Assembly (NCBI RefSeq): GCF_002872335.1
Contig: NZ_NJAG01000026.1
Span: 1-64,000, forward strand
Direction of reading: 5' to 3'
DNA from: Siphonobacter sp. BAB-5405
GTDB lineage: Bacteria > Bacteroidota > Bacteroidia > Cytophagales > Spirosomataceae
DNA length: 64,000 nucleotides
The stretch's first letter is position 1, and every line of letters starts with the position of its first letter. Shown here in pieces: positions 9,063 through 41,395 of this stretch. The notes beneath the pieces are model-generated. The model worked only from the letters and a program-made list of their open reading frames with translations, was not told where the DNA came from and made no database searches. The position numbers were made by a program, and so were the translations under genes.

Positions 9063-9083
9063 TTATCCACATAGTTATCCACA
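9063..9083 (+). other. Pair of perfect DnaA boxes
   Basis: TTATCCACA occurs at 9063-9071 and again at 9075-9083, head to tail, 12 bp start to start. Both are exact matches to the high-affinity DnaA box. They lie in the 211 bp gap between a terminator and ybeY. DnaA binding is inferred from the motif. Confidence 0.7.
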
Positions 9084-9130
9084 CACGTATTCTGGACCCA
9101 AAAGAGCGAAGCCCCTACTCTTTTTCCTTG

Positions 9131-9138
9131 TACCTTTG
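9131..9138 (+). promoter_or_regulatory. Putative ybeY promoter -7 element
   Basis: TACCTTTG matches TAnnTTTG exactly, 21 bases before the ybeY ATG, giving a short leader. No clear -33 element at the expected spacing. Confidence 0.5.
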
Positions 9139-9159
9139 TGATTATCAATTCATTTACCC

Positions 9160-9576
9160 ATGATCCGTTATTTTGTAGAGGACGTCGAATTTCAGGTCCC
9201 CTTTCCTCAGAAGACTCGCCGCTGGCTAAATACCGTTGCTTTGGCTGAAGGATTTCAGATTGCCGAGCTTAACTATATTTTTTGTTCCGATGAGTACCTC
9301 CATAAAATCAATGTGGAGTATCTGGAACATGATACGTATACAGACATCATCACGTTTGACAACTCCGAAGAAGAGAAGATCATCAGTGGAGATATTTTTG
9401 TCAGCGTGGAACGAGTTGAGGACAATGCCCGTTCTCTCAACGTCATTTTCCAGGATGAACTCGCTCGGGTAATGGTACACGGTGTTCTACACTTGGCTGG
9501 CTACCTGGACGAGACGGATGAAGAGGAGGAAAATATGAGACGTTTGGAGAGCCACTACCTTCTTACCAGAATTTAA
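9160..9576 (+). CDS. ybeY: Endoribonuclease YbeY (rRNA maturation factor)
   Basis: Metal-dependent endoribonuclease needed for 16S rRNA 3'-end maturation and ribosome quality control. 138 residues, the usual length. The UPF0054 motif is present near residues 107-116 as 'HGVLHLAGYLDET'. The first two zinc-ligand histidines are in place. The third position of the classical HGxLHLxGYDH motif is not His here but falls in 'LDET'; my recollection is that Bacteroidota YbeY proteins commonly differ there, so this need not mean loss of activity. The central 'DTYTDIITFD' is also typical. Followed 142 bp later by mnmG, with two parS-like sites between. Confidence 0.95.
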   Translation: MIRYFVEDVEFQVPFPQKTRRWLNTVALAEGFQIAELNYIFCSDEYLHKINVEYLEHDTYTDIITFDNSEEEKIISGDIFVSVERVEDNARSLNVIFQDELARVMVHGVLHLAGYLDETDEEEENMRRLESHYLLTRI

Positions 9577-9579
9577 AAA

Positions 9580-9631
9580 GTTTTCACGTGGAACATATTT
9601 CTGAAATTTTTAAAAGTTTTCACGTGAAACA
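9580..9631. other. Two parS-like centromere sites
   Basis: GTTTTCACGTGGAACA (9580-9595) and GTTTTCACGTGAAACA (9616-9631) are near-palindromes centred on CACGTG, 36 bp apart and within a longer direct repeat that includes the preceding TTTAAAA stretch. Read on the minus strand both are TGTTYCACGTGAAAAC, matching 14 of 16 positions of the chromosomal parS consensus TGTTTCACGTGAAACA or its TGTTCCACGTGAAACA variant. parS sites bind ParB and usually cluster near the replication origin. No parA or parB gene lies in this window. Function is inferred from the motif. Confidence 0.7.
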
Positions 9632-9717: not shown

Positions 9718-11580
9718 ATGTTTAGTGAGTACGATGTAATTGTAGTAGGGGCCGGACACGCCGGATGCGAAGCCGCTCATGCCGCTGCCCAGATGGGGTC
9801 GAAGGTGATGCTCATTACGATGAACATGAACACCATCGCCCAGATGTCCTGCAACCCCGCCATGGGGGGTGTAGCCAAGGGCCAGATCGTCCGGGAGGTG
9901 GATGCCTTGGGGGGCATGTCGGGGATCATCTCGGACAAGACCATGATCCAGTTCCGGATGCTTAATCGCTCGAAGGGACCCGCCATGTGGTCGCCGCGTT
10001 GTCAGTCGGACCGGATGCGGTTCGCTGAAGAATGGCGACTGGCTCTGGAGCAAAATCCTAACGTGGATTTCTGGCAGGAGATGGTATCGGGTTTGATCGT
10101 GGAAGAAGGCAAGGCGGTCGGAGTGAAGACGCAACTCGGTATTGAGATCCGTGGGAAAGCAGTGGTACTTACCAACGGTACTTTCCTGAACGGCATCATT
10201 CACATTGGTGAAAAACAATTCGGCGGTGGTCGGACGGCGGAGCGGGCAGCGACCGGAATTACGGAACAGCTCGTACAGCTAGGCTTCGAAGCAGGGCGGA
10301 TGAAAACGGGTACGCCTCCTCGGGTAGATGCCCGTAGTTTGGACTATTCAAAAATGGAAGAACAACTCGGCGATGAAAATCCTGAGAAATTTTCTTACCT
10401 GGATACGCCCCGACTGACTGAGCAACGCAGCTGCTGGATTACCTACACCAATCAGGATGTACACGAAATTCTGCGGACGGGATTTGAAAAATCACCCATG
10501 TTTGCCGGACGTATCAAAGGACTGGGACCTCGTTACTGTCCTTCGGTCGAAGACAAAATCAATCGCTTTGCGGATAAAGATCGCCACCAGATTTTCGTAG
10601 AACCTGAAGGCTGGAATACGGTAGAGGTTTACGTCAATGGCTTCTCGACTTCTTTACCCGAAGATGTACAATACCAGGCTTTGCGAAAAATTCCAGGATT
10701 TGAAAATGTTCGTATGTTCCGTCCGGGGTACGCCATCGAGTATGACTTCTTCCCTCCTACGCAACTCAAGCAAACGCTGGAAACGAAGCTCATTGAAGGT
10801 CTGTACTTCGCCGGACAAATCAACGGAACGACGGGTTATGAAGAAGCCGCCTGTCAGGGACTCATGGCCGGGATCAACGCCCATAATCAGGTACACGGAA
10901 AAGAGTCTTTTGTACTCCATCGCTCGGAAGCGTACATCGGTGTACTCATCGACGATCTGATTAATAAGGGTACGGAAGAACCCTACCGCATGTTCACCTC
11001 GCGGGCTGAATACCGAACCTTGTTACGTCAGGACAATGCCGATTTACGTTTGACTGAAAAAGGCTATCAATTGGGTCTGGCTTCGGAAGAACGCTACCAA
11101 CGGGTACAAGCCAAACAACAATTGACGGCTGAATTGATTGATCGACTCAAAAAATTCAAGGTGGCTCCCGAAGAAGTGAACCCCGCTCTGGAAGCTCAGA
11201 ACTCGGCTTTACTCCGGGAAAAGGGTACTTTATACCAACTTTTAAAGCGTCCAGAATTGGATGTACGGAGTCTGGGTCGGCTGAGCACCGCTGTAGAGGA
11301 ACTACGGAGCGAATATTCGGAGGAAATTCAGGAGCAGGCCGAGATTAATATCAAGTACGAAGACTATATGGAACGGGAGCGGATTCAGGTCGAGAAACTG
11401 AGTCGGCTGGAAAACCTGGTGATCCATCCCAACTTCGACTACGAAAAAATTACGGCCCTTTCCAAAGAGAGTCGTCAGAAACTCGGGCGGATGCGTCCGC
11501 AAACCCTGGGTCAGGCTTCCCGCATCAGCGGCGTATCGCCCTCGGATATTTCTATATTAATGGTACACCTGGGCCGCTAG
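9718..11580 (+). CDS. mnmG: tRNA uridine-5-carboxymethylaminomethyl modification enzyme MnmG (GidA)
   Basis: FAD-dependent enzyme that, with the GTPase MnmE, installs the (carboxymethyl)aminomethyl group at U34 of several tRNAs. 620 residues, full length. The Rossmann FAD motif '[12 protein letters not shown]' is at residues 9-20, the conserved '[13 protein letters not shown]' block near 46-58, the 'KTGTPPRVD' motif near 198-206 and the family C-terminal '[17 protein letters not shown]' at the end. In many bacteria this gene sits near the replication origin, which fits the surrounding DnaA and parS motifs. Codons for about residues 20-100 are clearly more GC-rich than the rest of the gene. 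ATG at 9718 gives the canonical [13 protein letters not shown] start. Confidence 0.98.
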
Positions 11581-14226: not shown

Positions 14227-14252
14227 TTGAACGAAGCGATACATTGGTTTCA

Positions 14253-14281
14253 AGCCTCGCCTATCTGGGCGGGGCTTTTTT
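14253..14281 (+). terminator. Rho-independent terminator
   Basis: AGCCTCGCC (14253-14261) pairs with GGGCGGGGCT (ending 14275), with one G-T wobble, and runs into T6. It ends the methyltransferase-lipoprotein operon and sets the left edge of the non-coding block. Confidence 0.88.
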
Positions 14282-14811
14282 GTGCCTTTATCAGTGTCTT
14301 TTCTGATGTGGAAAACTTCTGTGGACAAGTGGCGAAATGAGCCCTAAAATCGCTACTACGGAAAAGCTACATTCAAAATAAAAAATGTCCAAAGATTACG
14401 TGGATAAGTCCGTGGATAACTGGGCCTTTTTCTGTGGAAACGGGGGATAAGCCCTGTGGATGATTTCTGGACCTATACACATTCCTTACTGCACAACCCC
14501 TGAAGAGGAAGATCCCGTTGAAAACTCAGGAGAAATCCCCCGTTTCATACACGAGTTATTAACCGTAATTCACACCCTTCGAAAAACAAACTTTTCCACC
14601 GTGGATAAAACACTATTTTGTGCATAACTACGGTTTGATTGTAAATCAGTATATTAGATGTGGAGAAGCGTGTGGATAGTTGTGGAGAAGTAGGTAAATA
14701 ATCAACGAAGTATCAGGCAAGGATTTGAAAAGAAAAACTTTCCCACTTTTCCACCGCCCTTATTACAACCATTAAAAAAGATTTAAAAGAAAGATATTGT
14801 TAATAAATGTA
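14282..14811. other. Non-coding block dense in DnaA-box-like 9-mers; candidate oriC
   Basis: A 530 bp stretch without a gene. It carries many DnaA-box-like words, nearly all in the same orientation: CGTGGATAA at 14399-14407, 14411-14419 and 14600-14608; TGTGGACAA at 14320-14328; TGTGGATGA at 14455-14463; TGTGCATAA at 14619-14627; TGTGGATAG at 14671-14679; TGTGGAGAA at 14659-14667 and 14681-14689. The right edge (about 14757-14811) is very AT-rich, like a DNA unwinding element. Origin function is inference. The genes to its left are transcribed toward it, which is unusual beside an origin. Confidence 0.5.
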
Positions 14812-16647
14812 ATGGTAAACGATCTGTGTAAACTGATTTTCGTTGGGGCTCTATTGCTCACGCTGAATGTACAGGCTCAGCTCCAGCCCGCTCAAGTGGA
14901 AATGCCCGAAGTACAGTTGGGGCGGGAATACCTTCGTAATGGGGAATATGAAAAAGCCCGTGCTACCCTTGAGAAATTGACGCGGAACAAGGAAACGGTG
15001 GGTGAAGTGTACGAGCCCTATCTGGAAAGTTTGATGCGTCTGAAAGAACTGGGCGAAGCTGAAAAGTTTTTGAAGCGTCAGATCAAGAGTGATGGGGACA
15101 ACCCCTTTTATTTGCTCGACTATGCCCGCCTGCAGGAAAGTCAGGGCAAGATGAAGGAATCGGATAAGCTTTACGCCGAAGCTCTGCTCAAAGCCCAGAA
15201 GAAAGAAGAGCTGACCTATCGCCTTGGAAAGAACCTGGCCGACAAGGATCAGGCCGATTTAGCTGTAAAACTCTTCCAGGAGGCTCGCAAAACGCAAAAT
15301 GATCCCCTACGCTACTCCATCCAGATTGCACGGCTCTATCGCATTCTGCAGCAAAATGAAGCGATGATGGAAGAATACCTCCGGTTTGGATCGCAGGAAG
15401 GCAATACGGATTTAGTTCAGGGCATTCTTCAGGATGAGATGAAGGATGAGAAAATGACCCTGCTTCTGGAAAAACTGCTGTACAGAAAAGTGCAGGAAGT
15501 ACCCAATGAAAAGTACTACGGCGAAATGCTGGTCTGGTACCTCATTCAGCAAAAAGAGTTTGGAAAAGCCTTTATTCAGGCCCGGGCTCTGGATCGTCGC
15601 TTAAAGCAGGAAGGTCAGAAAGTAACCGAGATTGGCTTCATGGCCATGCAGAACAAAGATTACGAGGCAGCGGGGAAAGTTTTTGAATATTTGGTGAAGG
15701 AATACCCCAAAAGTCCCAACTACCCCGTCTACCGCCGACTGTTGATCAACGCTAAAGAGGAAGTGGTCAAAACTACCTACCCCGTCAAATTAGACGATAT
15801 CCGGCTTTTGATTAACGAATACCAGCGATTCTTTGCCGAAGTCGGAGAAAACCCGCGTACGCTGGAAGCTTTGCGAAATACAGCCCATCTGTACGCGTTT
15901 TACCTGAACGAAAAGGACACGGCCGCCGTTATTTTGCAAAAAGCGATCAGGAGTGCGGGAATGGATCAGGATTTCATCGACAAGTGCAAGCTGGATTTAG
16001 GCGATGTGTACTTGTTGAAAAGTGAACCATGGGAAGCAACGCTCCTGTATTCGCAGGTGGAAAAGTCAGCCAAGGAAAGCCCCTTAGGCTATGACGCCAA
16101 GCTGAAGAATGCGAAACTCTCCTACTACAAAGGCGATTTTGAACTAGCGAAGGAAGTGCTCGACATTCTCAAAAAAGCCACCACCCGCGAAATTTCGAAC
16201 GATGCGATCGAGTTGAGCCTGCTCATTCAGGACAATACGGGCATGGATACAACCGAAACGGCGATGAAAGCTTACGCTGCGGTAGATCTGTTGCTCTTCC
16301 AGAACCGGACGGAGGAAGCCTTAGCTTCGCTGAATACCCTCTATGAACAGTACAAGGAACACCCGCTGGCGGATGAAATTTTGTGGCGTCGGGCGAATAC
16401 CCTGGTGAAGCAAAACCGTCCCGCCGAGGCTCTGGCGGATCTGGATAAAATCCTTAAAAACTATTCGGTGGATATTCTGGGAGACGATGCCCTGTTTCTA
16501 TCGGCTAAGATTCAGCAGGAAAATATGAATGATAAAGACACTGCCATGAAGCTGTATCAGGAAATTCTTCAGAAGTATCCTGGAAGTATTTATACCGCCG
16601 AAGCCCGGAAACGTTTCAGAAATCTGCGGGGAGACGCAATAAATTAA
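14812..16647 (+). CDS. Secreted tetratricopeptide-repeat protein
   Basis: About 611 residues. A signal peptide ('LIFVGALLLTLNVQAQ') is followed by almost continuous helical repeats with TPR spacing, such as 'GREYLRNGEYEKARATLEKL', and later 'ILWRRANTLVKQNRPAEAL'. Such proteins scaffold protein complexes in the periplasm or at the outer membrane; the partner is unknown. Start set at the ATG at 14812 (MVNDLCKL). A TTG at 14797 is in frame but lies in the AT-rich end of the non-coding block. Translation ends 24 bases before a terminator, so it is a single-gene unit. Confidence 0.85.
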   Translation: MVNDLCKLIFVGALLLTLNVQAQLQPAQVEMPEVQLGREYLRNGEYEKARATLEKLTRNKETVGEVYEPYLESLMRLKELGEAEKFLKRQIKSDGDNPFYLLDYARLQESQGKMKESDKLYAEALLKAQKKEELTYRLGKNLADKDQADLAVKLFQEARKTQNDPLRYSIQIARLYRILQQNEAMMEEYLRFGSQEGNTDLVQGILQDEMKDEKMTLLLEKLLYRKVQEVPNEKYYGEMLVWYLIQQKEFGKAFIQARALDRRLKQEGQKVTEIGFMAMQNKDYEAAGKVFEYLVKEYPKSPNYPVYRRLLINAKEEVVKTTYPVKLDDIRLLINEYQRFFAEVGENPRTLEALRNTAHLYAFYLNEKDTAAVILQKAIRSAGMDQDFIDKCKLDLGDVYLLKSEPWEATLLYSQVEKSAKESPLGYDAKLKNAKLSYYKGDFELAKEVLDILKKATTREISNDAIELSLLIQDNTGMDTTETAMKAYAAVDLLLFQNRTEEALASLNTLYEQYKEHPLADEILWRRANTLVKQNRPAEALADLDKILKNYSVDILGDDALFLSAKIQQENMNDKDTAMKLYQEILQKYPGSIYTAEARKRFRNLRGDAIN

Positions 16648-16741: not shown

Positions 16742-16798
16742 TGGACAAGTACCCCTCATTGTTAATAACTCAGACAAGTTATCCACATTTACACACCT

Positions 16799-17926
16799 AT
16801 GAACAGCTTTTTCAAGCAAGGCCTTCTATGGGGTTTATTAGCGGTAAGTGGACCCGTAATGGCTCAAGATTCCACTGATAATCAAGAAGATCGCTTTCCT
16901 ACCTGGAGCTACGGATCGCAGAAATTGCAAAAAGGTCCTTGTGACGTATACCTATTCAAGTCGAATCAACACGCCGAGACGGTTGTGGATAACATTTTGA
17001 AATCGGCGGGTATGGGCTTTGGTAAACGTAATTTCCAGGTAGTCGAATGCCCTAATACTGATAACTGTTACGCGACTATCATCAATGGCACCCGCTACGT
17101 TGTTTATGATAACGCTTTTCTGAAGCTGGTGGAAAACCGAACCCAAACTGACTGGTCGGCGGTAAGTATCATGGCTCATGAAATCGGGCATCATATTCTG
17201 GGTCATACGTCCGATGGTACCGGTAGCCGTCCTGATAAAGAACTTCAGGCCGACTATTTCTCGGGCTTCGTGTTACACAATCTGGGTGGAAGTTTAGAGA
17301 ATGCTCAGATTGCCATCAAGCTCTTACAAAACGACGAAGGAGATTACACCCATCCACCCAAGCGTGATCGATTATCCGCAATTGAGAAAGGATGGCGAGA
17401 AGCGGATAATTTTTACCCACGTATAGCCAGTAAGGAACCGGCTTCCTCCCCTACCCCATCGACTTCCGTTGCCAAGCTTCCGTCCGCACCACCCGTGAAC
17501 AAGGTGGATACTAAAGCTCCGGAGATTGCTCAGACGGGATGTTTGGCGGGCAATTGCGACAATGGTACAGGGCTCTACGTAAACCGGAAAACGCTGGAAA
17601 AATACGAAGGTGACTGGAAGGAAAGTCGTCCCAACGGTTTTGGAACGCAGTATTATTCAACGGGCAAAAAGAAATACGAAGGAACCTTCCTCAACGGACG
17701 CTTCGATGGCAAAGGTACCTTGTGGTACACCAACGGGGCTATTTACGCCGGTGATTTCTCCGCGGGCCAATGCCATGGTAAAGGGATGTTACGGTACGCT
17801 AACGGCGATCGCTACCTGGGTGATTTTAAAAATGGCTACCGCCATGGAAAAGGTAAATATATTTATGCTAGTGGATACGAGGAAGTGCTGTATTATTTGA
17901 ACGATAAGCGGCAACCCGAAAAATAA
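16799..17926 (+). CDS. Secreted M48-type metalloprotease with C-terminal MORN repeats
   Basis: 375 residues. A signal peptide ends near 'GPVMAQ'. The protease part (about 30-205) carries the zinc motif 'MAHEIGHHILGH' (HExxH, about residues 124-135) and a downstream glutamate in 'ELQADYFSG' (about 148-156), as in family M48. A Pro/Ser linker (about 212-240) leads to about four MORN repeats (about 258-360; for example 'YEGDWKESRPNGFG' and 'YAGDFSAGQCHGKG'). MORN repeats often bind lipid or protein surfaces; here they may place the protease at a membrane. Substrate unknown. A perfect DnaA-box word lies inside the gene at 16984-16992. A strong terminator follows. Confidence 0.85.
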   Translation: MNSFFKQGLLWGLLAVSGPVMAQDSTDNQEDRFPTWSYGSQKLQKGPCDVYLFKSNQHAETVVDNILKSAGMGFGKRNFQVVECPNTDNCYATIINGTRYVVYDNAFLKLVENRTQTDWSAVSIMAHEIGHHILGHTSDGTGSRPDKELQADYFSGFVLHNLGGSLENAQIAIKLLQNDEGDYTHPPKRDRLSAIEKGWREADNFYPRIASKEPASSPTPSTSVAKLPSAPPVNKVDTKAPEIAQTGCLAGNCDNGTGLYVNRKTLEKYEGDWKESRPNGFGTQYYSTGKKKYEGTFLNGRFDGKGTLWYTNGAIYAGDFSAGQCHGKGMLRYANGDRYLGDFKNGYRHGKGKYIYASGYEEVLYYLNDKRQPEK

Positions 17927-17947
17927 TGGTATAGTATTTACAGAGAC

Positions 17948-17971
17948 AAGGCCGGATTCCGGCCTTTTTTT
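17948..17971 (+). terminator. Rho-independent terminator
   Basis: AAGGCCGG (17948-17955) and CCGGCCTT (17959-17966) with a 3-base loop, followed by T7. Confidence 0.92.
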
Positions 17972-18056
17972 GTGCATAATCCAGCGACTTTTGACGTTCA
18001 ATATCAAAATGTTTTAACTTGAACTTCGAAAAGGAATAGATTGGACCTGTACCACT

Positions 18057-19865: not shown

Positions 19866-19885
19866 TTGAATAATAGGTTTAAACT

Positions 19886-19920
19886 AAAAGGGCTTAGCAA
19901 CATCAGTGCTAAGCCCTTTT
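19886..19920. terminator. Bidirectional terminator between convergent genes
   Basis: AAAAGGGCTTAGC (19886-19898) and GCTAAGCCCTTTT (19908-19920) form a perfect 13 bp stem with a 9-base loop. A and T runs on both sides let it serve the acyl-CoA ligase gene (plus) and the permease gene (minus). Confidence 0.92.
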
Positions 19921-19937
19921 ATCACTAGAAAATGAGT

Positions 19938-24525: not shown

Positions 24526-24528
24526 GAG

Positions 24529-28513: not shown

Positions 28514-28518
28514 GAAAT

Positions 28519-29013: not shown

Positions 29014-29027
29014 GCCGTCAGTAGAAA

Positions 29028-29051
29028 GTAAAAAGCGAGTATTTTTACTCG
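29028..29051 (-). terminator. Weak terminator overlapping the sua5 stop
   Basis: On the minus strand CGAGTA-AAAA-TACTCG is followed by CTTTTTAC. The stem is only 6 bp and includes the sua5 stop codon, so termination may be partial. Confidence 0.45.
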
Positions 29052-29980: not shown

Positions 29981-30108
29981 TCTTCTTAATTTTCAGTCTT
30001 TTGTTGCCGTTCACAGAGTAGGCTTTCCGACAAAAATACGGTTGACTTAGGTACAAAACAAAGCTGCCAGCTTGGGGCTGGCAGCGAATGACTGAAAAGA
30101 AATAGCGA

Positions 30109-30828: not shown

Positions 30829-31029
30829 GGCTTTGTAAGAATTAGTTTTTGAATCGTTTACACCCAGTAGATGCGATCGATCCAAAAATTCCATACGGAG
30901 AAGGTGTTAATGAAAGTTAAAGATAAATTGGAAATGATAAGGTGAATAAAAAAGGTTGATAATGAATGATTTATGACTAAATTGAATTTTTGAAATTCCT
31001 ATAAATACGAAAGAAACCGGGTGCTGTCT

Positions 31030-31512: not shown

Positions 31513-31542
31513 AATACAGATTGAATGGTCGTCGTATGCGTA

Positions 31543-31550
31543 CAAATGTA
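31543..31550 (-). promoter_or_regulatory. Putative folK promoter -7 element
   Basis: Minus strand TACATTTG matches TAnnTTTG, 30 bases upstream of the proposed TTG start. A TTTC about 20 bases further upstream could serve as a weak -33 element. Confidence 0.5.
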
Positions 31551-31600
31551 AAAATAGAGTACCGGGAAACACCAGTAACCGGAAAGAAGGGTACCCAAAT

Positions 31601-33139: not shown

Positions 33140-33228
33140 AGTTTTCTTACCTAAAATCAGGTAGCAAACTTAAGCGGTTTAGGAGTTATAGCGGATAGGG
33201 CCCGGTATTTAACCAGAACCAAAGCCAT

Positions 33229-33276
33229 AAAAAAGCAAGAACGCGTTGGTAATCAATTGATTACCAACGCGTTCTT
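33229..33276 (-). terminator. Perfect 40 bp palindrome with T-tract, probable topoisomerase terminator
   Basis: Positions 33237-33276 read identically on both strands (AAGAACGCGTTGG... centred on AATT). On the minus strand the stem is followed by GCTTTTTTATGG, giving a terminator for the topoisomerase IB gene. An 18 bp stem with a four-base loop is unusually long. The plus-strand side lacks a T-tract. Confidence 0.75.
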
Positions 33277-33321
33277 CGTGTACATGCTAACTAATGTCGA
33301 ATACATATTTAGGGAACGGTA

Positions 33322-34425
33322 CTAGACCGTTGCCTCCAGCAATTGCTTCACTTTCATTTCCAGCGGAGACAAAGACGAAGGATCTGCCGTTTCACTGGGA
33401 GCCGTATCCAGTCCTTCGCAATAGCCCCAAAGTTTTTCGGATTCATAAGCCGTAATTACTTTGGGATGTACGTAGTATTTCTTGCTGACGGCCCGAGTAT
33501 TACCCAAAGCCTCAGCTACCAGATCATAACAGCGGTTGATATTACGTTTACAGGCCGTAGGCGTATCGAATAATCCCAAAGACTGGAAAGCCTCGAAAGC
33601 TCCCAGTGTACCTCGCCAGGTACGAAAGTCCTTAGCCGTAAATTCTTCACCCGTAATCTCACGTAGATACGTATTGACGTCACCAGAGCCGACACTACGG
33701 TGGTTACCTTCGTTGTCTACATACTGGAAAAGCTCCTCGCCGGGTACATCCTTACACCGCTGAATCAGTTTAGCCAGCCGTTTATCTTTCAGGCTGATTT
33801 CGTGGAAAACACCCTTCTTCCCTTTGAAACGAAAGGTAACTTTTGATCCTTCGATGTCAGCGTGTTCGTCCTGCATGGTGGTAAGACCATACGAGCCATT
33901 TTGCTTCTTATACTCTTCGTTACCCACCCGAATGCTAGTCTTTTCCATAAGCCGAACAATGAGTGCCAGTACTTTCTCGTACGGTAGTCCCGGGCGACGT
34001 AAGTCTTTTTCAACCTGCTCCCGAATCTTAGGTAGTACTTCAGCGAACTCTACCAGCCGGTAAAACTTGGTTTCATTGCGAATGGCATTCCAGTCCGGAT
34101 GATACCGATACTGCTTACGACCCTTCGTATCGAAACCTGTAGCCTGTAAGTGACCATTAGATAACGGACTTATCCACACTTTTTCCCAAGCCGGCGGTAT
34201 AACCAGTGAACGGATTCGCCGTAGCGTATCCAGATCGCGTATCGGCTTTTTATCAGCGTCGACATACCGAAACGATTTATTATGGCGTAAGCGATGAATA
34301 CCCGGTTGATCGTCGGTCGTGTAGACCAACCCTGCCACCTTGGCCGACCGCTTTGGATCTTTTGACCAAAGACGGGTACGGCGGCGACGGGTGGCTTTCG
34401 AAGGAGGTAGTGCAACAGCACTCAT
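33322..34425 (-). CDS. DNA topoisomerase IB (poxvirus-like)
   Basis: Type IB topoisomerase that relaxes supercoils through a 3'-phosphotyrosine intermediate. 367 residues. N-terminal region with 'PPAWEKVWISP' (about 77-87) and 'ATGFDTKGRKQYRYHPDW' (about 95-112). Catalytic residues seen: Arg in 'SIRVGNEEY' (about 164-172), Lys region near 'FRFKGKKGVFHE' (about 198-209), Arg in 'KDFRTWRGT' (about 267-275) and the active-site Tyr in 'SKKYYVHPKV' (about 314-323). Bacterial copies are scattered and thought to have spread by transfer. Codon use does not look foreign. A DnaA-box word occurs inside at 34170-34178. Confidence 0.94.
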   Translation of the reverse strand: MSAVALPPSKATRRRRTRLWSKDPKRSAKVAGLVYTTDDQPGIHRLRHNKSFRYVDADKKPIRDLDTLRRIRSLVIPPAWEKVWISPLSNGHLQATGFDTKGRKQYRYHPDWNAIRNETKFYRLVEFAEVLPKIREQVEKDLRRPGLPYEKVLALIVRLMEKTSIRVGNEEYKKQNGSYGLTTMQDEHADIEGSKVTFRFKGKKGVFHEISLKDKRLAKLIQRCKDVPGEELFQYVDNEGNHRSVGSGDVNTYLREITGEEFTAKDFRTWRGTLGAFEAFQSLGLFDTPTACKRNINRCYDLVAEALGNTRAVSKKYYVHPKVITAYESEKLWGYCEGLDTAPSETADPSSLSPLEMKVKQLLEATV

Positions 34426-34480
34426 AAAGTTAAAGGGTTGTGGGTTTCAGAGAAGGTATCACCTTCCCAACAAATATCAA

Positions 34481-34780
34481 TTACAGCAGCGGATCGTCTT
34501 CCTTAATCGGAGCTTCGTCATGCTGGCTATGGCGATCGGCGTCCTGCTGGTGGCGGTCGGCCCGGTCAACACTTCCCCGTTCGCGAATATTTACTTCTGT
34601 TTCCATATCAGTTGGATCAAACTCGCCCTTTTCGTTCTCAAAGGATTGTTCGTAATTCTCAACCCCTTCACTTTCCAGAGCCTTCAGTTCAGAGGGGTTC
34701 AGGCCCAGATATAACTTTTCCGGCTCCTGCTTCTCCGTGTTTTCTCTCAGTCCACTGTTTTCTTTCGGTTCGGTATTCAT
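34481..34780 (-). CDS. Small acidic, disordered protein of unknown function
   Basis: 99 residues, almost without hydrophobic core: rich in Glu, Asp, Lys, Asn and Gln (for example 'NSGLRENTEKQEPEKL' and 'HQQDADRHSQHDEAP'). One short segment, 'LYLGLNPSELKALESEGV' (about 23-40), could fold as a helix. No domain recognised. It has a proper ATG (34780), ends 56 bases before the topoisomerase start on the same strand, and is divergent from the Fe-S gene. It is probably real but could be a chance frame. Confidence 0.55.
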   Translation of the reverse strand: MNTEPKENSGLRENTEKQEPEKLYLGLNPSELKALESEGVENYEQSFENEKGEFDPTDMETEVNIRERGSVDRADRHQQDADRHSQHDEAPIKEDDPLL

Positions 34781-34923
34781 GGCTGTTGGCTATTATTTTG
34801 AGCATGAAATAGGATAAAAAAGAGTGCCTTCATGAATTTCCCCCGAATCTAAAGCCCTTTGATGTAGAAAATATTCCCTTGTTTTTCTGATTTCAACCCT
34901 GTTCAGGAAACTAGTTATTATGC

Positions 34924-34953
34924 TTGCATACTATTTTGATAATGGTATCTTTG
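34924..34953 (+). promoter_or_regulatory. Promoter of the Fe-S electron-transfer operon
   Basis: TTG at 34924-34926, a 19-base spacer, and TATCTTTG at 34946-34953 fit the Bacteroidota -33/-7 promoter model well. The start codon lies 40 bases downstream. Confidence 0.6.
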
Positions 34954-34992
34954 CTAGAGTAAATTGATTTTTTCGAGCAAAACAAAGAAGAT

Positions 34993-36315
34993 ATGCAACT
35001 CCTACCGCAAGTAGTCTTTGCATTAGTAGTAGGATTGGTTGGCTGGATGATGGTTCGACGGATTCGAAACATTCAGCAAACGATTCAACTTGGCCGGGCC
35101 GAGGATTTGACGGATCAGCCGGGTCTTCGCTGGCGTACCATGCTCCGGATCGCGTTTGGGCAGCAACGCATGTTCGATCGACCGCTGGTGGGTATACTGC
35201 ACCTGCTGGTGTACGCGGGTTTTCTGTTGATCAACATTGAAGTGCTGGAGATTGTACTGGATGGCTTACTCGGCACGCACCGAATTTTTGCTCCGGTACT
35301 GGGCGGTTTTTATCCGTTCCTGATTGATTTTTTTGAGGTATTGGCACTGGGCGTACTCGTAGCCTGTATCCTTTTTCTGATTCGCCGGGATGCCCGGCTG
35401 ATTCCCCGTTTGCAAGCCCGTCAGCACCGGGAATTGAAGGGCTGGCCCGTGCTGGATGCCAACGTTATTCTGATTACCGAGATCGTACTGATGGTGGCCA
35501 TTCTGAGTATGAATGCTGCTGATAGCTTGTTACAGGAACGCGGACAGGCCCATTATCCGCTTGTGGGTGATTTTGTCATCAGCCAGTTTTTGAAGCCTAT
35601 TTTTGCGGGTTTTAGTACGGAAGCTTTGCTCGTCATCGAACGGGTCTCCTGGTGGTTTCATATTCTGGGCATTTTTGCCTTTGCCGTATACGTTACCTAT
35701 TCCAAACACCTGCACATCTTTCTGGCTTTTCCCAATACCTATTTTACCCGAATTCAGCCGCAGGGAACCATGGATGCTATGCCTGCCGTCACGCGGGAAG
35801 TAAAACTAATGCTCGGTACCGAAACGGATACGGGAACGCCGCCGGAAGCGGGCAGATTTGGAGCTAAAGACGTCATGGATCTTTCCTGGAAAAACCTCCT
35901 AGACGCCTATTCCTGTACCGAGTGCGGACGATGTACGGCAGCTTGTCCGGCAAACCTGACCGGGAAAAAACTTTCGCCCCGGAAAATCATGATGGATACC
36001 CGGGATCGGCTGGAAGACCTGGGAAGAAACCTGCAAACCAACGGCGGCGAGCTGAAGGACGATGGAAAATCTCTACTGGGCGACTATATCCAGACGGAAG
36101 AATTACGAGCCTGTACAACCTGTCAGGCTTGCGTACAGGCCTGCCCTATTCTGATCAATCCGCTTGACATTATTCTGCAATTGCGTCGGTATCAGGCCAT
36201 GGAGGAATCCAACGCTCCGGCCGCCTGGAATGCCATGTTCCAGAATGTGGAAAACAATCAGGCTCCGTGGAAATTCTCGCCCGGCGACCGCTTTAACTGG
36301 GCCGAGCAGTTGTAA
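34993..36315 (+). CDS. Membrane-bound (Fe-S) electron-transfer protein (HdrC/NarI-like fusion)
   Basis: 440 residues. The N-terminal half has about five membrane segments (about 1-22, 68-90, 105-135, 155-180, 220-245) with spaced histidines, as in nitrate-reductase gamma-like heme b subunits. The C-terminal half carries two [4Fe-4S] motifs: 'CTECGRCTAACP' (about 309-320) and 'CTTCQACVQACP' (about 374-385). Likely passes electrons between a quinone pool and a soluble partner, working with the CCG-domain protein encoded 21 bp downstream. The donor and acceptor are unknown. Confidence 0.85.
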   Translation: MQLLPQVVFALVVGLVGWMMVRRIRNIQQTIQLGRAEDLTDQPGLRWRTMLRIAFGQQRMFDRPLVGILHLLVYAGFLLINIEVLEIVLDGLLGTHRIFAPVLGGFYPFLIDFFEVLALGVLVACILFLIRRDARLIPRLQARQHRELKGWPVLDANVILITEIVLMVAILSMNAADSLLQERGQAHYPLVGDFVISQFLKPIFAGFSTEALLVIERVSWWFHILGIFAFAVYVTYSKHLHIFLAFPNTYFTRIQPQGTMDAMPAVTREVKLMLGTETDTGTPPEAGRFGAKDVMDLSWKNLLDAYSCTECGRCTAACPANLTGKKLSPRKIMMDTRDRLEDLGRNLQTNGGELKDDGKSLLGDYIQTEELRACTTCQACVQACPILINPLDIILQLRRYQAMEESNAPAAWNAMFQNVENNQAPWKFSPGDRFNWAEQL

Positions 36316-36336
36316 CCATTTCAAAGCAATTCGTGT

Positions 36337-37128
36337 ATGAGTATGGACTATAAAGTACCTACCATGGCCGAACTGATGGCTCATGGAGATACGCCCGAGG
36401 TATTGTTCTGGGTGGGTTGTGCGGGCAGTTTCGACGATCGCTACAAACGCGTAACCGTTGCTTTCGCCAAGATTCTCAATCAGGCGGGAATCAAATTTGC
36501 GGTGCTGGGTACGGAAGAAAGCTGTACGGGTGATCCGGCTCGTCGGGCCGGAAATGAGTTTCTGTTTCAGATGCAGGCCTTAACCAATATTGAAGTGCTA
36601 AACGGCTACGGCGTACAGAAAATCGTGACGGCCTGTCCCCACTGCTTCAATACGCTGAAAAACGAATATCCGGCTCTGGGCGGCACATACGAAGTCATTC
36701 ATCATTCTACCTTTCTCCAGCAGTTGCTCGATGAAGGCCGCCTGACCGTACAGGGCGGAGCCTTTCGTGGCCAGCGAATCACGTATCACGATTCCTGTTA
36801 CCTGGGGCGGGCAAATGGCGTATACGAAGCTCCACGAACCCTTATTCAGGCTCTGGATGCTGATTTAGTGGAAATGAAGCGTTCCCGGAAAAACGGCCTC
36901 TGCTGCGGGGCGGGTGGTGCCCAGATGTTCAAGGAACCCGAACCCGGTAGAAAAGACATCAACATCGAACGAACGGAAGAAGCCCTGGGTACTGGAGCGA
37001 AAACCATTGCCGTCGCCTGTCCCTTCTGTATGGTGATGATGACGGATGGCGTCAAAGCCAAAGAAAAAGAAGACCAGATCAAAGTCCTGGATCTGGCCGA
37101 ACTGATCAGTCAGTCGAACGGCTGGTGA
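36337..37128 (+). CDS. CCG-domain (HdrB/LutA-like) Fe-S oxidoreductase subunit
   Basis: 263 residues. Two CCG-type cysteine modules: 'GCAGSFDDRY' (about 27-36) with 'ESCTGDPAR' and 'ACPHCFN' (about 94-100), then 'DSCYLGR' (about 151-157) with 'LCCGAGGAQMF' (about 187-197) and 'ACPFCM' (about 228-233). Such domains bind non-cubane Fe-S clusters in heterodisulfide reductase B and lactate or glycolate oxidase subunits. Forms an operon with the membrane Fe-S protein. Together they resemble a two-component HdrBC-like module of unknown substrate common in Bacteroidota. Confidence 0.85.
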   Translation: MSMDYKVPTMAELMAHGDTPEVLFWVGCAGSFDDRYKRVTVAFAKILNQAGIKFAVLGTEESCTGDPARRAGNEFLFQMQALTNIEVLNGYGVQKIVTACPHCFNTLKNEYPALGGTYEVIHHSTFLQQLLDEGRLTVQGGAFRGQRITYHDSCYLGRANGVYEAPRTLIQALDADLVEMKRSRKNGLCCGAGGAQMFKEPEPGRKDINIERTEEALGTGAKTIAVACPFCMVMMTDGVKAKEKEDQIKVLDLAELISQSNGW

Positions 37129-37131
37129 GCC

Positions 37132-37920
37132 TTACGGAAACGCCAGCGGATCGGGGTACTGGAACGTGTACGCCAGTTGAGTGATCAGTTTTTCCGAAGA
37201 AATTACCTTAAACGGGACGGGTGCTTCCGGTGTCTTGAATATGGGCGGAGCCCAGCCGTGTTGTTCCGCGTTTCGTTCGTAAATGGCCCGCCGTACCGGA
37301 TGCTCGGGAGCTACTACGTTGAAGGTTTCATTCCAGACGTCTTGTTGTAAGAGGGTCTCAATAATGCCAATGACGTCGTCACGGTGCACAAAGTTGACGG
37401 GTACATCTCCGGTATCTACCGTTTTCCCGATGAAGTACTTCCCGGCAATCCGGTCATAGCCCATTAGGCCGCCGCAGCGGAGTACGGTCAGCGGAAACGT
37501 GCTTTCCTGTAGCAGATGTTCAACGGTAACCAAAGGATGATTTTCCAGCGTTGGTCCGTATTCATCGAGTTCCGTACTGGTTTCGGGATACACGGAAGTC
37601 GAGGAAATGTAGATCAGTTTTCCCCGGAAATCGGTCATCTGGTGCAGTAACTGGCGAATCTGTTGCGGATGAAAATCGTCGCCCTGCGAGCTGGCCCGGG
37701 GTGGAATACTAATGATCAGTACCTCTGCATTTAGCAAAGCAGCTAAATCCCCTGTTGGTTCGGGATTGAAATTCAGAAGCACGGGCTGAATGCCCGCCTG
37801 AGCCAGCAATGTAAGTTTTGCTTCCGAAGTGGTCGTTCCGATCACCGTATGCCCTTGTTCGGCCAGTGCTTTGCCCAGCGGTAAGCCCAGCCAGCCGCAA
37901 CCCAGAATACTAACGTTCAT
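37132..37920 (-). CDS. NAD(P)-dependent SDR-family epimerase/dehydratase-like protein (YeeZ-like)
   Basis: 262 residues. An N-terminal Rossmann motif 'ILGCGWLGLPLGKALAEQG' (5-23) and the 'YISSTSVYPETS' segment (about 103-114) mark the extended SDR superfamily; the glycine pattern is the GxGxxG variant seen in YeeZ-type proteins. The canonical YxxxK catalytic pair is not obvious, so it may be a non-canonical dehydrogenase. Convergent with the CCG-domain gene (3 bp gap) and 4 bp from nadD on the same strand, suggesting co-transcription with nadD. Confidence 0.8.
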   Translation of the reverse strand: MNVSILGCGWLGLPLGKALAEQGHTVIGTTTSEAKLTLLAQAGIQPVLLNFNPEPTGDLAALLNAEVLIISIPPRASSQGDDFHPQQIRQLLHQMTDFRGKLIYISSTSVYPETSTELDEYGPTLENHPLVTVEHLLQESTFPLTVLRCGGLMGYDRIAGKYFIGKTVDTGDVPVNFVHRDDVIGIIETLLQQDVWNETFNVVAPEHPVRRAIYERNAEQHGWAPPIFKTPEAPVPFKVISSEKLITQLAYTFQYPDPLAFP

Positions 37921-37924
37921 TCCT

Positions 37925-38497
37925 TTAGACGTAAAATTTTTTCCAGCGAATATAGGCTTCTACTTCTTCGGGGACCATATACCGAATGGTTCGTTCGGCC
38001 TTGATTTGTGCCCGGATGAATGTAGCCGAAATATCCAACAGGGGTGATTCCACCAGCCGGACGTTGGGATGATCCACCAGATCGCTCGGCTCGGCATTGG
38101 GCCGGGGATAGACGTATAGGCCAAATTCACTCAGAATTTGCTCGTGTTCTTTCCAATTTGGAAACTGGCCCAGGTTATCGCCACCGATGATGAGTCGAAA
38201 GGTATGCTGGGGAAACTTCTCCTGTAGCTTCAGCAGCGTATCGATGGTATAACTCGGACGCGGCATGGTAAACTCCACATCACTGACTTTGAACTTGGAA
38301 TTGTTCTGAATGGCCAGCGAAACCAGTTTGTACCGATCTTCCTCGTGCAGGAGTTGCTTATTTTTTTTGAAGGGATTCTGGGGAGAAACCACAAACCAAA
38401 CCTGATCCAGATCGGTCGTCTCGGCCATAACATTCGCTACAATCAAATGGCCGATATGAATGGGATTAAACGAACCGAAAAAGAGACCAATGTTCAT
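37925..38497 (-). CDS. nadD: Nicotinate-nucleotide adenylyltransferase
   Basis: Adenylates nicotinate mononucleotide to deamido-NAD in NAD synthesis. 190 residues from the ATG at 38497, giving the canonical N-terminus MNIGLFFGSFNPIHIGHL with the GSFNPIHxGH nucleotidyl-transferase motif. The 'SPLLDISATFIRAQI' segment (about 152-166) is the second motif, ISSTxIR in type. The frame extends to 38572 through repeat sequence (NNLLSNEQLKTHNDQLKTNNN), which is rejected as translated repeat. Downstream gene on the strand is the SDR protein. Confidence 0.95.
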   Translation of the reverse strand: MNIGLFFGSFNPIHIGHLIVANVMAETTDLDQVWFVVSPQNPFKKNKQLLHEEDRYKLVSLAIQNNSKFKVSDVEFTMPRPSYTIDTLLKLQEKFPQHTFRLIIGGDNLGQFPNWKEHEQILSEFGLYVYPRPNAEPSDLVDHPNVRLVESPLLDISATFIRAQIKAERTIRYMVPEEVEAYIRWKKFYV

Positions 38498-38527
38498 GTT
38501 GTTATTAGTTTTTAGTTGATCGTTATG

Positions 38528-38581
38528 GGTTTTTAGTTGTTCGTTACTGAGCAAATTATCAACAACCAACAACTAAAAACC
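38528..38581. repeat. Inverted repeat between rmuC and nadD
   Basis: GGTTTTTAGTTGTT (38528-38541) and AACAACTAAAAACC (38568-38581) form a perfect 14 bp inverted repeat. The unit TTTTTAGTTG-TCGTTA occurs twice in tandem (about 38508-38545). No T-tract. It fills the gap upstream of nadD and resembles the low-complexity repeats at 1503-1566 and 40085-40320. Confidence 0.6.
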
Positions 38582-38594
38582 AACAACCAATCTC

Positions 38595-39857
38595 TTACTC
38601 TTCTGCCTGATCCAGCCACGATTTCGGTAACTCCTTGGTAGCCCGGGCTCCGAGTGTACGGATTTTTTCGGCTGTGCGAATCAGATTGCCCTTGCCTTCG
38701 TAGAGTTTCTTGACGGCCTCGTCGTAAGCGGATTGAGAAGATTTTAGCGTATCACCTACCTTCTGTAAGTCGCGGATAAAGCCTTCAAATTTGTCGTACA
38801 GTTCACCACTCAAGCGGGCAATTTCCAGTGAATTCTTACTCTGTTTTTCGAATTTCCAGAGGCTTGATACTGTACGCAAGGTAGCCAGCAAGGTAGTAGG
38901 ACTGACGAGTACAATCCGCCGTTCCCAGGCAAAGTTAAACAATTCGGCATCCGACTGAATGGCCAGACTGAAGGCCGGCTCAATCGGCATGAAGAGCAAT
39001 ACAAAATCGGGGGAAATCAGGCCCTGAGCCGTTTCGTAACGTTTTTCGGCCAGAATCCGGATGTGACTGCGAACGGAAGTCAAGTGAGCCGAGAGGTACT
39101 TATGCCGCTCGGTTTCGTCATCACAGCCAATGCAGCGTTCGTAGGCGACCAGCGAAACTTTGGCATCCACGATCAGGTGCTTGTTATCGGGTAAACAGAT
39201 GACTACATCGGGCCGGATGATGCTGTTATCCACATTCTGGGTCAGTACCTGCGTCAGGTACTCCTTGCCTTTGACCAGACCGGAACGTTCCAGTACTTTT
39301 TCCAGAATCACTTCGCCCCAGTTACCCTGCTGTTTCGTATCGCCCTTGAGGGCTTTGGCAAGGTTATCAGCGTCCTGACTGAGTCGCTGGCTTAAGTCGT
39401 GCAACTTGCGTACTTCGGCGAGCAAACTGACTTTATCCCGTAGTTCCTCCTTGTAATTTTCTTCGATTTTCCGTTCGAACGCCTGAATCTTCTCGCCCAG
39501 CGGATGCAGAATCTGGTGCAGATTAACCTGATTCTGTTCCGTAAAGCGACGCGATTTTTCTTCGAGTAAGTCGTTGGCCAAGAGCCGGAATTGGGCGGAG
39601 AGTTCTTCCTGCTGGAAGTGAAGTTTATCTTCCAGATTGCGGTAATCAGCTTCCAGAGCCGCCAGTTGACGGTTCAGATCCAGCGTACTACCGCGTTCTT
39701 TTTCCAGAGCGGTTCGGAGCTGGCCGTTCTCGTCACGAGCGGTTTTCAGCGAAGCTTCCGCCACCCGTACCTGCGAACCACTTTGCCCTTTGGCAACCAG
39801 CCACGCAGCCACGGCTCCAATCGCCAGCCCGAGAAAAAGAAAGAGAAAATCGCTCAA
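38595..39857 (-). CDS. rmuC: DNA recombination protein RmuC
   Basis: Predicted nuclease-fold protein that limits DNA inversions at short inverted repeats. 420 residues: an N-terminal membrane anchor (about 3-20), a coiled coil (about 30-165) and the RmuC domain (about 170-385) with its hallmark 'GNWGEVILEKVLERSGL' (about 178-194) and 'PDNKHLIVDAKVSLVAYE' (about 224-241). All expected blocks are present. A DnaA-box word occurs inside at 39226-39234. Same strand as nadD. Confidence 0.95.
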   Translation of the reverse strand: MSDFLFLFLGLAIGAVAAWLVAKGQSGSQVRVAEASLKTARDENGQLRTALEKERGSTLDLNRQLAALEADYRNLEDKLHFQQEELSAQFRLLANDLLEEKSRRFTEQNQVNLHQILHPLGEKIQAFERKIEENYKEELRDKVSLLAEVRKLHDLSQRLSQDADNLAKALKGDTKQQGNWGEVILEKVLERSGLVKGKEYLTQVLTQNVDNSIIRPDVVICLPDNKHLIVDAKVSLVAYERCIGCDDETERHKYLSAHLTSVRSHIRILAEKRYETAQGLISPDFVLLFMPIEPAFSLAIQSDAELFNFAWERRIVLVSPTTLLATLRTVSSLWKFEKQSKNSLEIARLSGELYDKFEGFIRDLQKVGDTLKSSQSAYDEAVKKLYEGKGNLIRTAEKIRTLGARATKELPKSWLDQAEE

Positions 39858-39876
39858 GAATCAGCCGATTAAAAAC

Positions 39877-40077
39877 TTAATTCAAATGGGGTTTCAGTAT
39901 GTTCGACACACGAACATTAGCTTCCTGCTGTAACAGGGGGAAAGCCTCAATCAACTCCGCCGGAGCCACTGGTTGGCTGGCTTCAACGGTTTCCGTAATG
40001 GTAACAAAAGGCAAATGATCCAGTAACTGCTTCATAAAAACAGCCTGATCTTCGGGGATATCAATTGTAATTTTCAT
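39877..40077 (-). CDS. Small protein of unknown function
   Basis: 66 residues beginning MKITIDIPEDQAVFMKQLLDHL and followed by a likely helical C-terminal half ('PAELIEAFPLLQQEANVRVSNIL'). The start resembles small proteins that begin with a beta strand and a helix, including some antitoxin-like families, but no toxin partner is nearby. ATG at 40077, 19 bases before rmuC on the same strand. Probably a real gene; family not recognised. Confidence 0.6.
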   Translation of the reverse strand: MKITIDIPEDQAVFMKQLLDHLPFVTITETVEASQPVAPAELIEAFPLLQQEANVRVSNILKPHLN

Positions 40078-40084
40078 GACTTCA

Positions 40085-40320
40085 CGCTTCTCGTTTAACG
40101 TTTGATGGGTTTGAGGTTTGATCGCACTTCAACTAATATTCGACAATCATTCAGGTTTGAGCTGAGTTTAAGGTTTGAATTCGTTTGAAGTTTGATGGCA
40201 GCCCACCCATTCCAAACGTATGAAACCTTAAACCCTTACAAATCAGTTCACAAAAACTCAAACTTTAAACTTTCAAACCTTGTACTTTAAACCCTCAAAC
40301 TTTCTCAAACCCATCAACCA
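40085..40320. repeat. Low-complexity inverted region upstream of the small gene and downstream of prfA
   Basis: The left part is made of 'gtttgaggtttga' words and the right part of their complements ('tcaaaccctcaaactttctcaaaccc'), so the 240 bp could fold into a large imperfect hairpin. No coding potential. A T-rich hairpin of this kind may slow transcription leaving prfA, but I see no standard terminator. Confidence 0.5.
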
Positions 40321-40324
40321 ACCT

Positions 40325-41395
40325 TTACACCGCTCCTTCTTTCAAACGTTCGGCGTTTTCGGCGATTCGCAATTGTTCGATGAAATCACCAATCTCTCCG
40401 TCCATAACGGCCGGAAGGTTATACACGGTATAGCCAATGCGGTGATCCGTCACGCGGGATTGTGGATAATTATACGTCCGGATTTTGTCGGAACGGTCGC
40501 CGGAGCCTACCATGCTCTTACGGGCACCCGAAATCTCGGCCTGTTGCTTGGCCAGTTCCATTTCGTAGAGGCGTGACCGCAGTACGGTCATGGCTTTCTC
40601 AAAGTTCTTGATCTGCGAACGTTCGTCCTGACACTGCACGACCAGTCCCGTGGGCAAGTGCGTCACCCGAACGGCCGAGTACGTGGTGTTTACAGACTGT
40701 CCACCCGCACCCGACGAACAGAAGGTATCCTTCCGAATATCGTTCATGTTGATCTGTACGTCCACTTCTTCCGCTTCGGGCAGTACCGCTACGGATGCGG
40801 CTGAGGTGTGAATACGGCCCTGCGTTTCGGTCGCGGGTACGCGTTGAACGCGGTGTACGCCCGACTCGAATTTGAGTTTTCCGTATACGTCTTCCCCCTG
40901 TACCGAAACGATGATTTCCTTGAAACCACCCGAGCTACCTTCGGTCTGGTCCATGATCTGGAACTGCCAGCCCTGATTCTGGGCAAAACGCTGGTACATC
41001 CGGAAAATGTCTCCGGCAAAAATGGCCGCTTCGTCACCACCCGTACCGCCGCGAACTTCGAGGATGATGTTCCGGCTGTCGTTAGGGTCTTTCGGAATCA
41101 GTAATTCTTTCAGCTCCTGTTCGAGTACTTCCTGATTGGGCTCGAGTTCATCGAGTTCCATCTTGGCCATTTCCCGAAACTCTTCGTCTTTTTCTGTCGT
41201 CAGTACTTCTTTAGCCGAGGCGATTTGTCCCAGCAGCAATTGGTACTCTTCGTATTTCTTGACGATTTTTTCCAGATCTTTGTACTCTTTACTCAGGGTT
41301 TTATATCGTTTCACATCGCTGGCCACTTCGGGCTGAACGATCTGCTGGGATACTTCGTGGAAGCGTTCGCGTATGGCTTCTAATTGCTCAAGCAT
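40325..41395 (-). CDS. prfA: Peptide chain release factor 1
   Basis: Recognises UAA and UAG and triggers peptide release. 356 residues, full length. The catalytic GGQ motif is in 'CSSGAGGQSVNTTYSAVRVTH' (about 222-242), and a PxT-type anticodon motif of RF1 is expected in 'RVPATETQGRIHTSA' (about 180-194; P-A-T present). N-terminal domain with 'KEYKDLEKIV'. A DnaA-box word occurs inside at 40461-40469. Good -33/-7 promoter elements lie about 70-100 bases upstream. Confidence 0.97.
   Translation of the reverse strand: MLEQLEAIRERFHEVSQQIVQPEVASDVKRYKTLSKEYKDLEKIVKKYEEYQLLLGQIASAKEVLTTEKDEEFREMAKMELDELEPNQEVLEQELKELLIPKDPNDSRNIILEVRGGTGGDEAAIFAGDIFRMYQRFAQNQGWQFQIMDQTEGSSGGFKEIIVSVQGEDVYGKLKFESGVHRVQRVPATETQGRIHTSAASVAVLPEAEEVDVQINMNDIRKDTFCSSGAGGQSVNTTYSAVRVTHLPTGLVVQCQDERSQIKNFEKAMTVLRSRLYEMELAKQQAEISGARKSMVGSGDRSDKIRTYNYPQSRVTDHRIGYTVYNLPAVMDGEIGDFIEQLRIAENAERLKEGAV

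Follow-up and report, generated by a model that had tools for sequence, protein, structure and literature searches.

The 64-kb stretch of DNA analysed here (the window) is the first part of contig NZ_NJAG01000026.1 in the 6.49-Mb draft genome of Siphonobacter sp. BAB-5405 (246 contigs; termed G000 herein). It carries ybeY, mnmG, a Big_5/DUF2141 gene, a TPR gene and, to the right of these, a stretch of 19 genes that includes an M48/MORN gene, purB, sbcD, sbcC and rmuC (Table 1). Eighteen perfect DnaA boxes, defined as exact copies of TTATCCACA on either strand, were found in the window, whereas 100 dinucleotide shuffles gave 0.47 on average and never more than 3. A preliminary description of this DNA had reported 18 boxes with about 0.5 expected, 17 of them within positions 9063 to 40469, and our recount agrees; its positions are right except for two boxes listed at 27699 and 27709, which start one base farther left, at 27698 and 27708. 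With 17 copies, TTATCCACA is the most frequent 9-mer of the 9.0- to 40.6-kb region. The four head-to-tail pairs described earlier are present (start-to-start distances of 12, 13, 12, and 10 bp); three are intergenic (upstream of ybeY, between sbcD and sbcC, and between sbcC and the map-like M24 peptidase gene) and the fourth lies within sbcC.

In the genome as a whole, 71 perfect boxes were counted, compared with 26 copies of the reversed word used as a control. Eighteen of the 71 are on the window's contig, and the enrichment is therefore local; a similar density all around the chromosome, which the preliminary description had named as a result that would speak against it, was not what the count gave. 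Most of the local boxes lie to the right of the predicted replication origin (oriC) described below, where 15 sites, mostly single boxes plus a few pairs, form a one-sided field of about 24 kb. Three hundred permuted words averaged 0.18 sites in the corresponding 26 kb. The enrichment concerns mainly the exact word: in the same 26 kb, the 27 possible one-mismatch words have a combined count of 15. The eighteenth box of the window, at 61319, lies 47 kb out from oriC.

Table 1. Features of the box field and predicted origin (positions in the window unless a contig is named)
Feature	Position	Strand	Remarks
Double perfect box upstream of ybeY	9063..9083	+	3-bp gap; both boxes with ≤1 mismatch in 5/6 genus genomes; G003 keeps only one
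Two parS-like 16-mers	9580..9631	.	Starts 9580 and 9616; between ybeY and mnmG; 3 and 2 mismatches to TGTTTCACGTGAAACA, which we take to be the parS consensus
mnmG (gidA)	9718..11580	+	Conserved landmark; ends 2.6 kb left of predicted oriC
Predicted oriC	14227..14796	.	Gap between Big_5/DUF2141 and TPR genes; 10 one-mismatch boxes; no perfect box
AT-rich candidate DNA-unwinding element	14700..14815	.	Beside the box array; G+C 0.32 at 14700-14849; putative
Field of 15 perfect boxes	16779..40469	.	Right of oriC, +2.3 to +26 kb
Perfect box upstream of M48/MORN gene start (16799)	16779..16787	+	In 5/6 genus genomes
Perfect box within M48/MORN gene	16984..16992	-	In 5/6
Perfect box within purB (adenylosuccinate lyase)	22872..22880	+	In 5/6
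Perfect box in purB-sbcD gap	23092..23100	-	One-mismatch box at 23080, 3-bp gap; perfect in 4/6, one mismatch in G005
Box pair in sbcD-sbcC gap	24529..24550	+	4-bp gap; G000 and G001 only
Perfect box within sbcC	24959..24967	-	G000 and G001 only
Double box within sbcC	26826..26846	+	3-bp gap; second box in 5/6, first in G000 and G001 only
Box pair between sbcC and M24 peptidase (map-like) gene	27698..27716	+	1-bp gap; G000 and G001 only
Perfect box within SIMPL-domain gene	30449..30457	+	In 5/6
Perfect box within topoisomerase IB gene	34170..34178	+	In 5/6
Perfect box within rmuC	39226..39234	+	In 5/6
Perfect box within release-factor gene (PCRF/RF-1, prfA-like)	40461..40469	-	In 5/6; right edge of field
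dnaA	L001:346-1785 (contig C58)		On a contig other than that of oriC

A predicted origin of replication downstream of mnmG

A search allowing one mismatch revealed ten DnaA boxes within 375 bp (positions 14307 to 14681), all on the minus strand, in the gap between the Big_5/DUF2141 and TPR genes; they had escaped the exact-word reading because none of them matches exactly. The array sits 4.6 kb past the mnmG start. The window very probably holds the chromosomal oriC of this Spirosomataceae-type Cytophagales bacterium at positions 14227 to 14796, because a similar array lies equally far past mnmG in most of the Cytophagales loci examined and because the GC skew changes sign near this place in four complete relatives. 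The suggestion in the preliminary description that dense boxes mark the neighbourhood of the origin is thus supported.

The comparison drew on 80 mnmG loci from named genomes (the best 80 of at least 588 matches). Boxes were counted in all 80, and the array test, which scored boxes with 0 or 1 mismatch per 400 bp at 3.5 to 5.3 kb past the mnmG start, could be applied to the 77 loci that reach this region. Among these best matches, the 25 loci closest by MnmG (L008 to L032, mostly labelled Cytophagales and including Dyadobacter, Larkinella, Runella, Fibrivirga, Algoriphagus, Echinicola, and Roseivirga) had at least 5 boxes in 22 cases, with up to 12, and the remaining three were two loci with 4 boxes and Rufibacter with 3. 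At least 5 boxes were seen in only 2 of the other 52 covered loci (Hymenobacter with 13 and one Chryseobacterium with 5); some Chryseobacterium loci had 4 to 6 boxes farther out. The Big_5 and then the TPR gene follow mnmG in the same order in 10 further members of the family, with the methyltransferase gene unmatched in three, and in 9 of the 10 the densest box cluster starts in the gap between the Big_5 and TPR genes. The exception is G046, in which the densest cluster begins inside the Big_5 gene and has only 4 boxes.

GC skew was sampled in 20-kb stretches of four complete relatives, in which negative values are expected to the left of the array and positive values to the right. The expected sign was found in 52 of 60 stretches (17/20 in G009, 17/20 in G038, 10/10 in G059, and 8/10 in G046), two of which contain masked bases (half of L118 and one tenth of L170), and in each relative the best-fitting switch, as far as the sparse sampling allows, was no more than about 50 kb from the array. 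Within the genus, comparison of the oriC gap identified conserved blocks, and the AT-rich stretch beside the array is alike, least so in G004.

An origin linked to dnaA was considered and rejected, as dnaA is located on another contig (C58) and its 3.2-kb locus contains no box with 0 or 1 mismatch; box-based autoregulation of dnaA is not apparent for the same reason. The better of the two parS-like sites is one of only two places in the genome with no more than 2 mismatches. These sites lie 5 kb from the predicted oriC and are possibly a loading place for ParB. In five of the relatives' loci (L010, L011, L016, L018, and L020) the contig ends 8.2 to 8.5 kb beyond the mnmG end, and G038 has a masked stretch in that region, which suggests a repeat to the right of oriC, for example a ribosomal RNA operon.

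The field in the genus and the family

Eighty kilobases around mnmG were compared in five other genomes of the genus (G001 to G005), with box positions aligned site by site in a single MAFFT run in which gappy places are possibly misjudged. G001, with 93.6% DNA identity across the block, is the closest congener. All six genomes share the syntenic gene block, except that two Fer4/CCG genes are unmatched in G002, G003, and G005 and that G004 carries some extra length. In the region that begins 5.5 kb beyond the start of mnmG and runs to the release-factor gene, G000 and G001 have 15 perfect boxes each, G002 and G005 have 23 each, G003 has 22, and G004 has none. Permuted words averaged 0.11 to 0.21 with a maximum of 4 over the five genomes for which they were run (all except G001). 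In none of the six genomes is there a perfect box from +30 to +45 kb to the right of oriC. The left side has few boxes until a small cluster of 2 to 4 perfect boxes about 30 to 33 kb out, which is present in all five other genomes. In G000, a 5-formyltetrahydrofolate cyclo-ligase gene on contig C91 contains four perfect boxes (L003:8464-8920) with the spacing of the congeners' cluster about 30 kb to the left of oriC.

The total number of perfect boxes per genome is 71, 64, 70, 75, 76, and 67 in G000 to G005, respectively, compared with 26, 25, 24, 15, 27, and 26 copies of the reversed word, so that the six totals are alike (64 to 76) although G004 has no field. In a tree of MnmG, the other five genomes group to the exclusion of G004 at modest support (83/83), which leaves room both for a gain of the field after the split from G004 and for a loss in G004.

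For the 10 further family members, we counted perfect boxes to the right of a point 600 bp beyond where the densest cluster starts, over the lengths given in parentheses: 8 in G006 (35 kb), 4 in G049 (9 kb), 4 in G063 (10 kb), 2 in G010 (31 kb), 1 in G008 (35 kb), 5 in G073 (36 kb), 4 in G060 (36 kb), 6 in G059 (35 kb), 0 in G046 (36 kb), and 1 in G055 (5 kb). For G049, G063, and G055, the sequence reached no farther than 15, 16, and 10 kb from the start of mnmG, and masked bases make up 5 kb of the length given for G008 and 10 kb of that for G059. A run of boxes next to oriC, though milder, thus occurs outside the genus as well.

Gain and retention of boxes

Nine of the 17 boxes between 9 and 41.4 kb are in coding sequence, where codon shuffling gave 0.81 (maximum of 4 in 500 shuffles), and they occur in three frames and both orientations; the other 8 are in 3.7 kb of intergenic DNA. 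In G002, G003, and G005, 20 of the 22 to 23 field boxes are kept in all three genomes, compared with 12% of other 9-mers, and 9 of the 15 G000 boxes are kept in G002, which belongs to the sister clade, compared with 7.6% of other 9-mers. The aligned block including oriC has 36 distinct sites, of which 8 are common to five genomes, 6 are private to G000 and G001, 12 are private to G002, G003, and G005, and 10 show other patterns. Judged from these alignments, boxes have been added and kept by evolution beyond background, and on our best reading selection would act mainly on the number of strong sites near oriC and less on individual promoters.

Three other accounts of the boxes were rejected. 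Dinucleotide shuffles, codon shuffles, and permuted words (not run for G001) all fail to reproduce the enrichment, which argues against chance, codon bias, and composition. A mobile repeat is not indicated, since there is no strong conserved flank beyond an A at -2 (29 of 41 boxes of G000 and G002) and a G at -1 (28 of 41). Nor is every field box a hidden double box: partners with up to 3 mismatches at a gap of 2 to 3 bp exceed the null expectation, yet most boxes have none. The one-mismatch partner of the box at 23092 is present in G000, G002, and G003, the three genomes keeping this box in which it was looked for.

Tight clusters of perfect boxes also occur elsewhere in the G000 genome. A carbon-nitrogen hydrolase gene on contig C126 contains five of them in about 340 bp (L002:7751-8088), and their spacings recur in G001 and partly in G002 and G003; this cluster is possibly a locus like datA or DARS of Escherichia coli. 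Four more are at and beside the gap between alpha-L-fucosidase and purH-like genes on contig C197 (L004:8423-8811), and three are at the gap between OmpA-family and seryl-tRNA synthetase genes on contig C10 (L005:8071-8137), a locus that also carries rsmG/gidB.

DnaA and a proposed titration mechanism

Domain IV of the DnaA protein aligns to 1j1v (E = 4e-20), which we take to be the E. coli DnaA domain bound to a DnaA box, and has the FGGRDHSTV motif, so that TTATCCACA is very likely a strong site of this DnaA, as judged from the protein match. Profile models for SeqA and YabA gave no match in the genome, although these models are narrow, reaching their cut-offs in only 1 and 2 of 14 control genomes, respectively. 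For Hda, nothing exceeded the cut-off of a model that did so in 1 of the 14 control genomes; it returned DnaA itself below the cut-off and a weak match on contig C197 (E = 5e-4). With models as narrow as these, the three negatives favour titration weakly.

We propose that DnaA, with its E. coli-like box-reading domain, would occupy the high-affinity sites of the field first. Filling of oriC would come late because its ten boxes each carry one mismatch and none is perfect, so that it would be complete only once free DnaA rises after saturation of the field. After firing, the rightward fork would have copied the entire field once it had moved 26 kb; the near-origin high-affinity sites would double at once, free DnaA would drop, and a second initiation would be blocked. 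Strong sites that lie beside oriC and are doubled right after firing fit titration, which of the functions put forward in the preliminary description (titration or regulation by DnaA) appears to be the better supported.

Discussion

We assign a probability of about two in three to the reading of the boxes as an origin-proximal DnaA titration field to the right of oriC, taken together with the predicted oriC and the mechanism proposed above. A number of observations weigh against it. G004 has near-full synteny and no field boxes, its 76 boxes are scattered over the genome, and none of the 15 G000 boxes is kept there, compared with 5.2% of other 9-mers; its oriC gap has only 4 boxes with 0 or 1 mismatch, and its densest 400 bp lies 28 kb to the left of mnmG. 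The oriC gaps of G002, G003, G005, and G004 contain 1, 1, 2, and 2 perfect boxes, respectively, and those of other genera contain several, so that the part of the mechanism that relies on a weak oriC is not general. Some intergenic boxes (16779 and 23092) are conserved, as operators would be. For an abundant DnaA, fifteen sites would be a small number. Single boxes, not double ones, make up most of the field, and in E. coli perfect single boxes were tied to a bound region in only 13 of 32 cases (PMC11317965). According to one statement in a review, no clusters of significant regulatory importance have been identified in Bacillus subtilis (PMC5295017). The skew analysis suggested in the preliminary description places the switch near the array in the four complete relatives and not in the window, whose own skew has no switch at 14.5 kb; this is a mild point against the origin call.

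The boxes could instead be operators through which DnaA regulates origin-proximal genes (ybeY-mnmG, sbcDC, M48/MORN, and others) and ties their expression to initiation. Eight of the 17 boxes are indeed intergenic, two pairs (9063/9075 and 26826/26838) have the 3-bp gap favoured by E. coli DnaA, and conserved intergenic sites are found upstream of ybeY (both boxes of the pair with at most one mismatch each in 5 of 6 genomes), at 16779 (5 of 6), and upstream of sbcD, where the box at 23092 (perfect in 4 of 6) has its one-mismatch partner. These last three may be regulatory sites, and it is in this weaker form that the regulatory role in the preliminary description survives. As an account of the whole field, however, we consider regulation unlikely: 9 of the 17 boxes are inside genes, and in five genomes the number of boxes remains high although many of their positions change. 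The pairs between sbcD and sbcC and between sbcC and the M24 peptidase gene, which had been proposed to put repair genes under DnaA control, are restricted to G000 and G001 and absent from the other four genus genomes; that proposal does not hold as it was stated, and operators at these pairs were rejected as the main role. The one-sidedness of the field, with its box-free stretch from +30 to +45 kb in six genomes, the parS-like sites beside oriC, and the spread of boxes through genes like a domain mark would also suit an organising role, in which DnaA-bound DNA, together with parS, serves to condense, tether, or segregate the origin and timing is secondary. Direct evidence for such a role of DnaA was not met with, although no literature search was aimed at it, and G004 keeps the gene block and has no field; this explanation appears rather improbable.

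Two further explanations carry less weight still. datA and DARS are compact, use IHF and Fis, and change the nucleotide state of DnaA. A locus of this kind, at which the boxes switch that state rather than sequester DnaA, would agree with boxes that lie outside yet near oriC and with the tight clusters elsewhere in this genome, but the field is dispersed over 24 kb across many genes, and such a function is improbable for it. Finally, TTATCCACA might be recognised here by some other protein, or might result from base composition or codon usage. In favour of this is the base preference that extends past the 9-mer (A at -2, G at -1). Against it, codon shuffles and permuted words fail to reproduce the enrichment, the same word is found at oriC in relatives, and domain IV of DnaA is conserved. 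We regard this explanation as very improbable.

Under the titration reading, the field is best seen as a compact, one-sided form of an origin-proximal box enrichment that is already known. In E. coli and Salmonella, boxes accumulate near oriC, a pattern proposed to assist the titration of DnaA and to prevent re-initiation; the E. coli counts are 902 ± 77 boxes per genome, obtained with permissive motifs in 10-centisome windows (PMC12371093). Here, too, boxes are gathered near oriC; unlike in that case, they match the exact consensus, number 15 to 23 sites in about 25 kb, lie on one side of oriC, and belong to a different phylum. According to the same paper, control by titration was proposed decades ago and experimental evidence was lacking before its own work (PMC12371093). 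In a modelling study, titration alone fails at high growth rates, and only near-origin sites would prevent premature re-initiation, a placement that the authors find inconsistent with E. coli experiments (PMC9640692). E. coli DnaA prefers double boxes in chromatin immunoprecipitation sequencing (PMC11317965); the pairs 9063/9075 and 26826/26838 and the box at 23092 with its one-mismatch partner, all with a 3-bp gap, resemble these, whereas most field boxes are single and the gaps in the remaining two pairs are 1 and 4 bp.

DnaA boxes outside oriC are found in B. subtilis as well, where removal of all six DnaA-box clusters led to early initiation (Okumura 2012, as reviewed in PMC5295017). Those clusters are discrete and have a strong effect only when all are removed (PMC5295017); in the window, by contrast, mostly single boxes and few pairs extend over 19 genes. 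In E. coli, the activity of DnaA is modulated by the datA, DARS1, and DARS2 loci, which are defined control regions (PMC4585315, PMC5010248). They share with the field the presence of DnaA boxes outside the origin, which at datA and DARS influence initiation, and differ from it in that the boxes here are dispersed and known from sequence alone. A search by title and start of abstract in the open-licence PMC literature found no DnaA-box field in Bacteroidota, which is not proof of absence.

More tentatively, and as a possibility that we consider less probable than its opposite, initiation in this lineage may be controlled for the most part by titration, with a field of consensus boxes near the origin dedicated to it, and with no match for SeqA or YabA and none for Hda above the cut-off. 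The field would have arisen inside a single genus through successive gains of consensus boxes, many of them in housekeeping genes, while G004 would spread a similar total over the chromosome.

For annotation of this part of the Cytophagales, the landmark for oriC would be the region past mnmG, which in this genome is not at dnaA. If initiation in this lineage is indeed controlled for the most part by titration from the field, the lineage uses an arrangement that the model in PMC9640692 set aside for E. coli. The contrast within one genus, with five genomes that have a compact field and G004 that has nearly the same gene block and none, would make it possible to test, through comparison of relatives or through synonymous recoding, whether the position of the sites sets the control of re-initiation.

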